63,990 nucleotides of DNA from Deltaproteobacteria bacterium. GTDB lineage: Bacteria; Desulfobacterota; Desulfobulbia; Desulfobulbales; Desulfurivibrionaceae. Both the position numbers and the translations under genes were made by a program. A model generated the notes under the pieces. That model was not told where the DNA came from. It saw only the letters and a list, made by a program, of their open reading frames with translations, and searched no databases. Below, in pieces: positions 3,661 to 40,720 of this stretch. Position 1 is the first letter of the stretch; each line of letters starts with the position of its first letter. Where the stretch lies: the NCBI GenBank assembly GCA_026388695.1, contig JAPLJH010000008.1:1-63990 (forward strand), written 5' to 3'.

Positions 3661-4110
3661 CTAGTGAAGATTGCCCTTGCGACCGAAACGAAGCACCATC
3701 ATCTCGTCCGCCTCGTTCTGCTCTTTCTTCAATCCGGCCAGGAGGAATTTTTGGTAATCCCGCTCCCTGGCCTTTTCCATCACCTTTTTATCCTGCACCT
3801 TGACGGTCAACTCAACCCTGGCCTGGGCAACCGCCCCCCGCTGGGCTTCTATCTGGGCTTGGCCAGCCTCGACCTCCTGCTCCTTGCGAAAGATTCCTTC
3901 CACATACAAAGCAAAGACCGGGGCCAGCATCTGTTGCTCCTTTTCTACTTCAAACTCGGCGATCAATTCCTGCCGCTGCTGCTGCAGTGCGGCAAGCTGT
4001 TGCTTCTGCTGTTCAAGCAGCGTGAGTTCTCGGCCAAGTTTCTGCTGGGCAAGCTCTTCGAGATTGCGCCGCAGACCAAGAACTGTTTCAAGCCTGAAAT
4101 GATACGCCAT
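3661..4110 (-). CDS. fliJ: Flagellar export protein FliJ
   Basis: FliJ is the central stalk of the flagellar export ATPase and escorts export chaperones at the cytoplasmic face of the basal body. The 149-residue product is almost entirely predicted coiled coil, rich in Gln, Glu, Leu and Lys, and opens with the family's typical MAYHFRLETVLGLRR. FliJ is usually about 145-150 residues. GAGAGGGAACA precedes the ATG. It lies 24 nt after fliI, the standard arrangement in flagellar operons. Sequence conservation in FliJ is low, so the call leans on the N-terminal motif, length and position. Confidence 0.88.
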   Translation of the reverse strand: MAYHFRLETVLGLRRNLEELAQQKLGRELTLLEQQKQQLAALQQQRQELIAEFEVEKEQQMLAPVFALYVEGIFRKEQEVEAGQAQIEAQRGAVAQARVELTVKVQDKKVMEKARERDYQKFLLAGLKKEQNEADEMMVLRFGRKGNLH

Positions 4111-4134
4111 TGTTCCCTCTCTATGGACCTTGCC

Positions 4135-5460
4135 CTAAACGCTCTGGCCGTCTGCGGCAAAAATCTCCGCCAGCTGCTGGGCGCTTTCAGCAAAGGAAAC
4201 TTTTTCCTCCACCGGCTGTTTGAGATAGCCGTTCAACCGGTCGATCATGGTGATGGCGTTATCGATCTTCGGATTGCTGCCCTTGGCATAGGCGCCGATA
4301 TTGATCAGGTCTTCCGAGCGGCGGTAGGTGGACATGACTTCCAAAAATTTATGGGCAACACGCACCTGCTCTTTGGGCACCACATCGGTCATACACCGGC
4401 TGATGCTGCCCATAACCTCGATGGACGGGTAATGCCCCTGGCTCGCCAGATCACGGCTCAAAATAATATGACCGTCCACGATGGAGCGCACCGCGTCGGC
4501 GATGGGCTCGTTCATGTCGTCGCCCTCCACCAGCACCGTGTAGATGCCGGTGATACTCCCCTTGCCCATGCAGGTTCCGGCCCGTTCCAGCAATTTGGGA
4601 AGCTGCCCGAACACCGAGGGGGTATAGCCCCGGGAGGTGGGCGGCTCGCCGATGGCCAGGCCAACCTCCCGGCTGGACATGGCAAAACGGGTGACGGAAT
4701 CCATCATCAAAATAACATCGCGACCTTTGTCGCGGAAAAACTCGGAGATGGCTGTGGCAAGATAGGCCCCGCGCATCCGCACCAGAGGCGGCTGATCCGA
4801 GGTGGCCACCACGACCACGGAACGGGCCAGCCCTTCGGGGCCGAGATCCCGCTCGATAAAGTCTTTCAACTCCCGGCCACGCTCGCCGATCAGGGCGATG
4901 ACGCTGATATCAGCGGCCGTGTGCCTGGCGATCATGCCAAGCAGAGTGCTTTTTCCCACCCCGGAACCGGCAAGAATCCCGATGCGCTGGCCCTTGCCCA
5001 AGGTCAACAGGCCATTGATCGCCCGCACCCCCACATCCACCGGCTCAAAGATGCGCTCCCGCTCCATGGGATTTAAGGGCGCAGCATAGAGGGGATACTG
5101 GGTCTCGGCCTGCAAAGGACCTTTGCCGTCCATGGGATTGCCCAGGCCGTCAATAACCCGGCCCAGCAAGGATTCGGCCACCGGCACCCCAGCCTGCTCA
5201 CCTACCAGCCGGATAGCGCTGCCCGGTTCAACCCCGCGCATCTCGCCCAGAGGCATGAGCAAAACCCGGCCCTCGCGAAAACCAACCACCTCGGCCAGCA
5301 CCGTGCCCTGATTCTTGAAAACCGAAACCTCGCAGATACTGCCCACCGGAATCCCCGGCCCCAGGCTCTCCAGAACCATGCCGATGACCTGATTCACCCG
5401 ACCGCCCACGCTGACGAGCGAGGTATCCTGGGCAACTTGGAGGCAGTGGGAAAGGTTCAT
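4135..5460 (-). CDS. fliI: Flagellum-specific export ATPase FliI
   Basis: FliI is the F1-beta-like hexameric ATPase that helps unload export substrates at the type III flagellar gate. The 441-residue protein shows an N-terminal beta-barrel region, Walker A AGSGVGKS at 164-171, Walker B VILMMDSVTRFA, and the family block EVGLAIGEPPTSRGYTPSVF. Length and domain order are normal, and catalytic residues look intact. AAGGATG lies upstream of the start. It is separated from fliH by a palindromic element at 5502-5610, so the usual tight fliH-fliI spacing is broken. This could lower or buffer fliI expression relative to upstream genes. Confidence 0.97.
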   Translation of the reverse strand: MNLSHCLQVAQDTSLVSVGGRVNQVIGMVLESLGPGIPVGSICEVSVFKNQGTVLAEVVGFREGRVLLMPLGEMRGVEPGSAIRLVGEQAGVPVAESLLGRVIDGLGNPMDGKGPLQAETQYPLYAAPLNPMERERIFEPVDVGVRAINGLLTLGKGQRIGILAGSGVGKSTLLGMIARHTAADISVIALIGERGRELKDFIERDLGPEGLARSVVVVATSDQPPLVRMRGAYLATAISEFFRDKGRDVILMMDSVTRFAMSSREVGLAIGEPPTSRGYTPSVFGQLPKLLERAGTCMGKGSITGIYTVLVEGDDMNEPIADAVRSIVDGHIILSRDLASQGHYPSIEVMGSISRCMTDVVPKEQVRVAHKFLEVMSTYRRSEDLINIGAYAKGSNPKIDNAITMIDRLNGYLKQPVEEKVSFAESAQQLAEIFAADGQSV

Positions 5461-39111: not shown

Positions 39112-39490
39112 CCTCTCCCTGATTGTGATGCACGAATAACTGTGGGGTCAGGTCTTGAAATATCACAAAACTCTCTTTCAACACCTGACCTAAAAACACC
39201 TCTTACGCCAGCATCCACATGCTTCATCAAAAAGCCATAAGCATACCGGGAGTATCATCAAAGAGTCAGGAAGTCAACCGAGAAAATCTCACACGAAATT
39301 TTATTATGCAACACCACTTTGAAACGCCAGTCTCTCCTGCCTTCCAACTAAAAACATCCTTTCCCAACGCACTGAGACAACACCTTTTCTGGACAAAATA
39401 ATCTCCCATACAGTATAGAAAGAACATCATCCTGCCCGATGACCGGCGCCTGCCGCCATTGCTTAGCCCGTATCCCTTTGGAGGACTTTC
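39112..39490. other. Intergenic region with one palindrome
   Basis: This 379-bp gap holds the REP-like hairpin at 39146-39190. Beyond that it is plain AT-rich sequence, probably the promoter region for the gene at 39491. I see no open frame that looks coding. Confidence 0.5.
39146..39190. repeat. REP-like palindrome upstream of the lipoprotein gene
   Basis: GGTCAGGTCTTGAAA (39146-39160) pairs with TTTCAACACCTGACC (39176-39190), 14 of 15 positions. The left end, GGGGTCAGGTCTTGAAATAT, matches the inverted end of the element at 38256-38304. The GGGGTCAGGTCTTG string is typical of REP-type repeats moved by Y1-type transposases; none is in the window. Confidence 0.65.
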
Positions 39491-39715
39491 ATGCCGCGCC
39501 TGATCTGTTACTGTTTTGGTTTTACCGAAGAGAATTTACGCCAGGATGTTCTGGAGCATGGCCGTTCGTTGATCATGGAGCGCATTGTTTGCGAGAAGAA
39601 AAACGGCCGCTGCCAATGCGCGGAGAAAAACCCCGCAGGCCGCTGATGTCTGGCTGAAGTCCGCCAGGTGGTGGACGCAGTGCTGAAAAACACTTCCAAC
39701 ACGGAGAACCGCTGA
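39491..39715 (+). CDS. Candidate selenoprotein: small CopZ/BFD-like [2Fe-2S] protein with in-frame UGA
   Basis: The frame begins MPRLICYCFGFTEENL with GGAGGACTTTC directly before the ATG. It carries Cys6, Cys8, Cys34, Cys41 and Cys43 and then AEKNPAGR, a TGA at 39644-39646, and CLAEVRQVVDAVLKN to a second TGA. BFD-like/CopZ N-terminal domains usually have Cys-Cys at this point (GRCCLGDVR type). The TGA therefore replaces the first Cys, giving U52-C53 in a 74-residue protein. The second TGA overlaps the ATG of the permease gene in TGATG, which supports translation through the first one. A hairpin at 39659-39676 has an AGGU loop, as expected of a bacterial SECIS. The alternative is a nonsense mutation (TGT to TGA) or an error. 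Likely role: metal or sulfur handling with the permease. Confidence 0.72.
39659..39676 (+). promoter_or_regulatory. Candidate bacterial SECIS hairpin
   Basis: GTCCGCC pairs with GGTGGAC (7 bp, one G-T wobble) around an AGGT tetraloop. The loop begins 20 nt after the UGA, similar to the 17-nt spacing and AGGU-type loop of the E. coli fdhF element. A competing fold, CTGGC with GCCAG, exists in the same stretch. Confidence 0.55.
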
Positions 39716-40671
39716 TGTATTTCCCGGTTGCCAATATCGAGGCCAACCCGCTGCTGCCACCGCTGGTTGCCTTTGTCATCTCTTTTTTCACCTCCATGGG
39801 CGGGGTGAGCGGGGCCTTCCTGCTGCTGCCCTTTCAGGTAAGCGTGTTGGGGTTCACCAGCCCGGCGGTCAGCTCGACCAACCAATTGTTCAACATCGTG
39901 GCCATCCCCAGCGGCGTGTACCGTTACATCAAAGAAGGCCGGATGCTCTGGCCCCTGACCTGGATCGTGATCATCGGCACCCTGCCCGGAGTGCTGGTCG
40001 GAGCCATCGTTCGGATCAAATACCTGCCCGACCCGAAAAACTTCAAGCTCTTTGCCGGACTGGTCCTTCTCTATATGGGCGGAAGGCTGCTCAAAGATCT
40101 GGCGTTTACCAAAAAAAATGGGGACACGCCCACCACCGAAGAGCGCTTCCATCAACGACACAAAAAGCAAGACCAGGCAACCGAAAGCGAACCGCCCGCC
40201 TCCTGCGAGCACTCGTCCTGCGTCACGGTCCGGCAATGGACCCCCACCCGGCTCGTCTATGATTTTTACGGGGAAACCTTCACGGTCAACGCCGTGGGAC
40301 TCATGGCCTTGAGTCTTGTTGTCGGCATGGTGGGAGGGGTGTACGGCATCGGCGGCGGGGCGATCATTGCCCCGTTTTTGGTTAGTTTCTTCGGCCTGCC
40401 GGTCTACACCGTGGCCGGCGCGGCTCTGATGGGAACCTTTGTCACCTCGGTGGCAGGGGTGATCTTTTACCAGATTCTGGCCCCCCACTTTCCCGGCATG
40501 GTCATCGCCCCGGATTGGCTCCTGGGCTTTCTCTTCGGGATCGGCGGCTTCGCAGGCATGTATTGCGGGGCGCGGCTGCAAAAATTCGTACCGGCCAAAT
40601 TCATCAAATGGATTCTGGTGGTGTGCCTGCTGTTCACGGCAGGCAAGTATATCTGGTCTTTCCTTTTTTAG
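39715..40671 (+). CDS. TauE/SafE (TSUP) family permease
   Basis: A 318-residue integral membrane protein with about eight TM segments in two halves. Each half carries a family motif: SFFTSMGGVSGAFLLLPFQV near the start and VGMVGGVYGIGGGAIIAPFL near 205-225. A hydrophilic loop between them (about 130-180) is rich in His, Glu and Lys and includes CEHSSC. TSUP proteins export sulfite or other sulfur-containing anions, or import them; direction and substrate here are unknown. Its ATG overlaps the stop of the candidate selenoprotein gene (TGATG), so the two are translationally coupled. A 9-bp hairpin (40670-40701) overlaps the stop but lacks a T tract. Confidence 0.88.
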   Translation: MYFPVANIEANPLLPPLVAFVISFFTSMGGVSGAFLLLPFQVSVLGFTSPAVSSTNQLFNIVAIPSGVYRYIKEGRMLWPLTWIVIIGTLPGVLVGAIVRIKYLPDPKNFKLFAGLVLLYMGGRLLKDLAFTKKNGDTPTTEERFHQRHKKQDQATESEPPASCEHSSCVTVRQWTPTRLVYDFYGETFTVNAVGLMALSLVVGMVGGVYGIGGGAIIAPFLVSFFGLPVYTVAGAALMGTFVTSVAGVIFYQILAPHFPGMVIAPDWLLGFLFGIGGFAGMYCGARLQKFVPAKFIKWILVVCLLFTAGKYIWSFLF

Positions 40672-40720
40672 GAGCCGTTACGTTGTCCTGTTACGGCTCC
40701 TTAGCCATGCTTACAACGAG

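Follow-up and report, generated by a model that had tools for sequence, protein, structure and literature searches.

A UGA-encoded CopZ-type iron-sulfur protein paired with a TSUP permease in a Desulfurivibrionaceae bacterium, with relatives among arsenic and mercury genes

The window considered here is the whole 63,990-nucleotide stretch of contig JAPLJH010000008.1 (C19 in our numbering) from a Desulfurivibrionaceae bacterium, known from a draft assembly of 2.58 Mb in 114 contigs that is 87% complete (GCA_026388695.1). Positions 39491-40671 form a two-gene unit, in which the gene of a 74-residue selenoprotein is followed by that of a TSUP permease (Table 1). The host, a relative of the sulfate reducers, almost certainly makes this tiny selenocysteine (Sec) iron-sulfur protein together with the membrane permease. 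What might such a protein do? Because relatives of it lie among arsenic and mercury genes, and because a Cys form shares one frame with MerA, a role with thiophilic metal(loid)s is the most likely one. As a Sec/[2Fe-2S] accessory, the protein may bind or reduce such metal(loid)s in the service of exchangeable exporters, a proposal with about an even chance of being right.

Table 1. Coordinates of the features of the two-gene unit, given as positions in the window
Feature	Position	Strand	Remarks
Sec/[2Fe-2S] protein gene	39491..39715	+	74 residues, U52; translated past the first TGA as far as the one at 39713-39715
Probable ribosome binding site GGAGGA	39480..39485	+	5 bases ahead of the ATG; read from sequence
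UGA codon, selenocysteine 52 (near certain)	39644..39646	+	TGA 151, TGC 2, TGT 1 among 154 unique loci
SECIS-like hairpin GUCCGCC-AGGU-GGUGGAC	39659..39676	+	loop 39666-39669
TauE/SafE (TSUP) permease	39715..40671	+	318 aa; PF01925 132.5 bits against a cut-off of 32.6

In standard ORF calling with translation table 11, the selenoprotein gene amounts to only 51 codons. Read through to the second TGA, its product is MPRLICYCFGFTEENLRQDVLEHGRSLIMERIVCEKKNGRCQCAEKNPAGRUCLAEVRQVVDAVLKNTSNTENR. A preliminary description of this DNA had proposed that the frame continues past the first TGA with a C-terminal helix, and that its stop overlaps the start of the permease in the sequence TGATG. Both points hold: an AlphaFold2 model in which Cys replaces Sec (mean pLDDT 92.3) places the helix at residues 54-72, and the permease ATG begins with the A of the second TGA.

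That the TGA at 39644-39646 is read as selenocysteine is near certain from the comparison of homologous sequences. In the order, a profile search gave 120 matches of the selenoprotein family in 112 of 257 genomes, and among the 110 matches examined the codon is TGA in 109 and TGC in one. The ten that were omitted from the order loci (G084, G111, G101:C195, G172:C65 in two pieces, G110, G112, G118, G106 and G034) are of three kinds: a single TGA is present in eight, among them one that has a TAA as well, another has three TGA, and the last is a stop-free N-terminal piece. In the named genomes, TGA stands at the codon in 80 of 80 loci, these being the best 80 of 87 matches; the cultured strains Nitratidesulfovibrio oxamicus NCIMB 9442 and N. 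liaohensis XJ01 are among the carriers of such TGA loci. The phylum sample had 66 matches, of which 10 loci (the window and one order genome among them) were included along with 20 further stretches. The merged set holds 220 loci; 215 were matched and 154 of them are unique in sequence, and the remaining five (L275-L279), for which tblastn gave no match, stand outside the 154. With TGA at exactly the same codon in 151 of the 154, the observation is far beyond chance, and the Cys codons found in the other three (TGC, TGT and TGC) bear out the view that the UGA takes the place of the first Cys of a Cys-Cys pair. C6, C8, S26, C41, C43, the Sec position and C53 are identical in all 143 unique TGA loci (C6 of L047 by an alignment gap only); the distant TGC locus L130 was excluded from the conservation and SECIS counts. 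On viral contigs there were 10 pattern matches, none of them a relative.

In each of the genomes G010, G101, G145, G179, G209 and G214 the selenoprotein gene is present twice, at separate places. At L047 (G166:C140) the start of the gene looks decayed, with the normal ATG missing and the first CxC changed; the TGA and the TSUP gene are kept.

Downstream of the UGA, the hairpin with an AGGU loop that had been noticed at bacterial SECIS distance proved to be conserved, with compensatory changes, over 143 loci. In the window (39659-39676) it has a free energy of -16.4 kcal/mol and a z-score of -2.69, and the first base of its GUCCGCC/GGUGGAC stem lies 15 nt past the U of UGA. Standard pairs fill 94% of the stem cells over the 143 loci, and sliding one side lowers this to 32-64%; all seven pairs are present in 88 loci and at least six in 137, and the apical loop has GG in 119. 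Compensatory changes occur at two stem pairs. Pair 17-30 is C-G in 94 loci and T-A in 39. Pair 18-29 is C-G in 133, all five loci with Asn (AAC) face GTT, and the sole Tyr locus (TAC) faces GTA; at pairs 15-32, 16-31 and 20-27 pairing is no more frequent than from independent columns. In the stem, CGC is used for Arg58 in 119 of 120 cases, compared with 205 of the 592 Arg codons upstream, and GTG for Val61 in 121 of 129, compared with 55 of 207 upstream. Measured against synonymous-codon controls, stem stability has a mean z of -1.53 (below -1 in 95 of the 143 loci, above +1 in none), and the stretch upstream of the UGA, under the same controls, a mean z of -0.35 (below -1 in 41). An Rfam scan of 39300-40700 gave no match to a SECIS family.

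The genome also has the machinery for Sec, with selA (617.2 bits), selB (366.9), selD (374.2) and tRNA-Sec (72.5) all over their cut-offs; selB occurs at two loci, and selD carries an in-frame TGA of its own. The product thus shows the marks of a bacterial selenoprotein, as the preliminary description had thought probable: an in-frame UGA kept as UGA or Cys across homologs (154 unique loci), a downstream SECIS hairpin with a conserved G-bearing apical loop, here also covarying, and sel genes in the same genome. The two selB regions (L002 and L003, on G000:C77 and C99) are 89.8% identical over 4.9 kb, and represent either a duplication or an assembly that mixes two close genomes.

Does the gene travel with selA elsewhere? 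In the phylum sample, selA was found in all 66 genomes with a selenoprotein match, compared with 355 of the sample's 395 genomes (p 4e-4, the overlap being compared by eye); 60 of these 66 matches have an in-frame TGA and six have none. The order sample gives little support for such co-occurrence and partly contradicts a simple rule: a selA match is missing in 13 of the 112 selenoprotein genomes and in 46 of the 257 overall, the overlap again being judged by eye. A laxer selA search of those 13 genomes returned only a fragment, in one of them. Twelve of the 13 have a selB match, over the cut-off in 11, and one of the 13, G182, is that of the TGC locus. Four near-complete genomes (G114, G118, G127 and G171; loci L312-L315) possess the TGA gene and selB and gave no selA match at E 1e-3, and their selB regions are free of N runs; possibly they are Sec users that lack selA, or the selA gene was missed.

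As for its fold, the 74-residue product consists, to judge from its sequence, of one domain related to the [2Fe-2S] domain of Archaeoglobus CopZ. When the PDB sequences were searched with the family profile, the only match up to E 1 was 2hu9 (E 2.7e-4), an entry for the N-terminal domain of that CopZ, and with the model Foldseek gave the same entry as best (E 0.49), followed by Bfd 6e6r (E 0.84, TM 0.53 of the query), both fold matches being weak. The CopZ-like [2Fe-2S] domain recognised at the outset is supported. A Pfam search of the protein gave no BFD model up to E 1 and nothing else of use. The alignment to 2hu9 sets C6/C8 on C75/C77, C43 on C109, U52 on C118 and C53 on C119. We take the cluster of CopZ to be held by C75, C77, C109 and C119; if so, Sec52 would adjoin a ligand without being one itself, and C41 would be an extra thiol of the family. 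The CopZ of Archaeoglobus fulgidus differs in having neither a Sec nor a counterpart of C41, and in its longer chain (130 residues). It is called a copper chaperone in a title cited in PMC7558416, and the title of a paper has CopZ carrying Zn2+.

A small [2Fe-2S] selenoprotein of this type had first been taken as undescribed, a view that has to be given up. CopZ-family selenoproteins, in forms 1 and 2, stand in the tables of a 2026 catalogue (PMC13188914) and of PMC9312934, where form 1 is entered as a (2Fe-2S)-binding selenoprotein of the copper chaperone CopZ family (cd10141, motif GxUC, WP_245779778.1). The window protein shares with form 1 the CopZ-like [2Fe-2S] domain, the single Sec and the GxUC motif, which here is G50-R51-U52-C53, and it is probably a member of that catalogued family, assigned by its motif against the table entry. 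Unlike the present case, the tabulated row comes without operon, SECIS, TSUP, ars or mer context. PMC2398784, which PMC13188914 cites for the CopZ forms, mentions neither CopZ nor 2Fe-2S in its main text. Form 2, the Csac_0668 family (NF045877, motif CU), has a related domain, to which the window protein scores 38.2 bits; however, the Sec is second in the pair there and first here, and the score, from positions 97-160 of 161, lies far below the cut-off of 190 and thus outside the family. The same is true of NF047645 (CopZ_Nterm_CC), with 52.9 bits against a cut-off of 100 and only positions 86-137 of 138 of the profile.

Another point of comparison is the Sec-assisted organometallic (SAO) system, whose selenoproteins are likewise grouped with metal(loid) transport (PMC13188914). 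The ArsP-like permease next to the selenoprotein gene at locus L160 has SaoE as its nearest family in NCBIfam, but its score of 131 is below the cut-off of 325. Only the two proteins of the window unit were compared with the Sao families, and neither matched, so that the SAO selenoprotein set was not found in them.

With a PF01925 score above the gathering score, the second gene of the unit encodes a TSUP permease. The coupling of the selenoprotein to it, which the preliminary description had put forward, is real but specific to certain lineages, TSUP being the next gene in only 28 of the 154 unique loci. The subfamily is present in 135 of the 257 genomes of the order, mostly away from the selenoprotein gene (24 of the 142 permease matches in the order were placed beside it). 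In genus g1 the permease lies directly downstream in 13 of 14 loci, 12 of these 13 with TGATG, and at L023 (also g1; the same as L132) a pair of chromate transporter genes occupies its place. In g45, which belongs to another family, an intact TSUP is directly downstream in nine of 15 loci and none adjoins in five (L077, L083, L089, L097 and L102); at L037 (the same as L148) a chromate transporter gene pair lies between remnants of TSUP, its first 24 residues on one side and its last 45 on the other. The spacing between the selenoprotein stop and the permease start ranges from -1 to 27 nt at the g1 and g45 loci and from 3 to 98 nt at L160, L219, L261 and L264; it is 127 nt at L091 and 383 nt at L268. 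A tree was made of 49 TSUP sequences, of which 29 came from case loci and 20 were chosen from the non-adjacent copies. The copies beside the gene occupy three positions in it, namely g1 with g45, then L160, L219, L261, L264 and L268, and finally L091; the splits that separate these three groups have a support of 0.99, and the inner splits less. The pairing thus arose repeatedly, or was inherited and often lost. In two of the three clades the gene-TSUP pair lies among arsenic genes. A Cys loop of the permease, CEHSSC, was considered as a metal site and rejected as a family trait, its two Cys being kept in 8 of 29 and 7 of 29 permeases.

The permease also occurs in other settings. A second copy in the same assembly, 92% identical (L289, G000:C55:3365-12315; TSUP at ~3988-4951 of the locus), has a chromate transporter gene upstream and, between the two, the last ~13 codons of a selenoprotein gene that has lost its start and UGA; it is a decayed paralog or the contig of a close strain. 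Since this copy has no intact selenoprotein gene, the permease may function without the selenoprotein. Around 20 non-adjacent TSUP loci, the 40 neighbours scanned include nine TOBE-domain proteins, eight integrase-family matches and four chromate transporters. TSUP is often divergent from a TOBE and integrase-like protein, and L290, L302, L305, L306, L307 and L308 were checked singly. These neighbours hint at a control of TSUP by oxyanions of the molybdate or tungstate type, and their layout presumably resembles that of TunR, a tungstate regulator; the word TunR does not occur among the literature matches listed for this layout.

Which genes, then, surround the selenoprotein across its family? 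The neighbours within 4.1 kb of the 154 unique loci were scored for nine families, with profiles that were made from recurring neighbours and hence detect only families first seen there. At least one arsenic, mercury, chromate-transport or TSUP gene was found by these nine profiles at 77 of the 154 loci and in none of 40 control regions, the controls all being of the window's order and the case loci reaching wider. Flanks are unequal, with at least 3.5 kb on both sides in 93 of the 154 loci, 50 of which have a hit. Genes of ArsP, ArsC or ACR3 type occur at 43 loci, at least two ars families at 34, mer-type genes at 10 (the Cys loci L273 and L274 among them), TSUP at 30 and ChrA at seven, counts that include related loci and are hence not independent; a p-value calculated for the contrast with the controls, on a nearly identical count of 76, is therefore a rough guide only. 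The other 77 loci have none of the scored families in their available flanks, which are often cut by contig ends; at 71 loci with no hit to eight of the profiles, 43 nearby genes on the same strand revealed no common theme in the 25 families listed of 74.

Representative neighbours, named by Pfam or NCBIfam, make the picture more concrete. At L160 a single strand carries arsR, an arsC of pI258 type (below the NCBIfam cut-off), an ArsP_1 permease, the selenoprotein gene, TSUP, an ArsE-type thioredoxin and acr3. L261 has the same order, without ArsR up to the contig end, L264 and L268 have it without ACR3, L219 has ArsR and ArsP as its only ars genes, and at L091 ArsR, ACR3 and ArsC precede the gene-TSUP pair; in these five loci the ars genes share the strand of the pair. 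At L122 the selenoprotein gene lies between a MerR-type gene and those of MerT, an HMA protein and MerA. A further case is L273 (2531-4558, minus strand), where one open frame, from its apparent start, joins a CopZ-type zinc domain, the Cys form of the [2Fe-2S] domain and MerA, the last with 568 bits to TIGR02053 against a cut-off of 454. Full-length chromate transporters are found upstream in seven loci, two of them confirmed by Pfam. The window unit has no adjoining ars or mer gene.

How could these parts work together? The selenoprotein would probably be cytosolic, and its single domain would bind a [2Fe-2S] cluster. Sec52, beside the probable cluster ligand C53 and with the family-specific C41, may form a soft, strongly nucleophilic site, at which a thiophilic metal(loid) akin to arsenic or mercury, whether as such or once reduced, would be captured, the cluster supplying or tuning electrons. 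The cargo would then be handed to the exporter or reductase encoded alongside, which would be TSUP in the window and ArsP, ACR3 or ArsC, or MerT or MerA, elsewhere. The window TSUP may act as the exporter; that its cargo would be a metal(loid) is an argument by analogy, drawn from the arsenic clusters in which this gene-TSUP pair is found and not from the window neighbours. We would rank a metal(loid) carrier with redox help above a reductase. The export of sulfur, selenium or metal had been suggested in the preliminary description; the neighbourhoods favour metal(loid)s, and sulfur and selenium are not favoured. A broader proposal is tentative, and falls short of an even chance: the Sec-[2Fe-2S] protein would be an adaptor exchangeable among unrelated systems (TSUP, ArsP, ACR3, ChrA, MerT/MerA), and its TSUP an unrecognised arsenic/metalloid exporter of anaerobes.

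Other explanations have to be weighed against the carrier. The protein could be chiefly an electron carrier, in which a Bfd-like [2Fe-2S] cluster and a Cys41/Sec52 redox pair would reduce As(V), Hg(II), Cr(VI) or a disulfide of a partner, while the permease exports the product. The weak second fold match to Bfd, the single frame that holds both a Cys homolog and the flavoprotein MerA, the ArsC and the thioredoxin-like protein in the L160 cluster and the seven loci with chromate transporters upstream would all fit this. However, the best relative is a copper chaperone by title (PMC7558416), a ligand carrier would serve the ArsP, ACR3 and MerT neighbours equally well, and no reductase gene adjoins the window gene; a role chiefly in electron transfer appears somewhat unlikely. 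A unit for sulfur or selenium oxyanions is an improbable reading. In that case TSUP would move sulfite, thiosulfate or a selenium analogue that the Sec protein carries or reduces, as might be thought from the naming of PF01925 after sulfite exporters and from those TSUP relatives that adjoin chromate transporters, a MOT1 molybdate transporter or TOBE-domain regulators. Against it, the gene-TSUP pair is found among arsenic genes in L091, L160, L219, L261, L264 and L268, and no sulfur-metabolism gene recurs beside the selenoprotein (25 of 74 families listed) or the non-adjacent TSUP (25 of 39).

Is the permease simply a chance neighbour, co-transcribed with a selenoprotein that acts alone? The minority of loci in which TSUP adjoins the gene (28 of 154), and the many order genomes, as well as the second copy L289, in which it occurs without an intact selenoprotein gene beside it, speak for this. 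Yet three separate clades of TSUP show the adjacency, 12 of the 13 g1 loci with TSUP preserve TGATG, and chromate transporter genes replace the permease in L023 and L037; chance association is very improbable. The last alternative, that the TGA is the true stop of a 51-residue protein, a sequencing error or the mark of a pseudogene, is a formal possibility only, and a practically negligible one. TGA is present in 151 of 154 loci and Cys codons in three relatives, C53 and the residues that follow are conserved, and the codon census together with the covariation of the SECIS hairpin led to its rejection.

Returning to the metal(loid) accessory, what is new is its setting. A tie of selenoproteins to these elements has been published at the level of the group, since PMC13188914 describes other selenoproteins, mostly for transport, as implicated in mercury and arsenic resistance. 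For the CopZ-type family, a role with TSUP, ars or mer partners was not found in print: no such link appears in the titles and abstract openings of the literature matches listed, and two papers of Haft (PMC12013261, PMC9879109) may cover it. As far as these sources go, the combination with TSUP and metal(loid) genes is new, and the CopZ-type selenoprotein itself is already catalogued. A 2015 survey of the transporters of ars operons (PMC4435449) names ACR3, ArsB, ArsP, MFS and MIP, plus 20 other transporters, and the words sulfite, TSUP, DUF81 and PF01925 are absent from its main text. In this setting, the TSUP permease is nominated as a new type of transporter for ars operons, and a catalogued selenoprotein family gains a testable role in the handling of soft metal(loid)s, where the chemistry of selenium is obviously advantageous.
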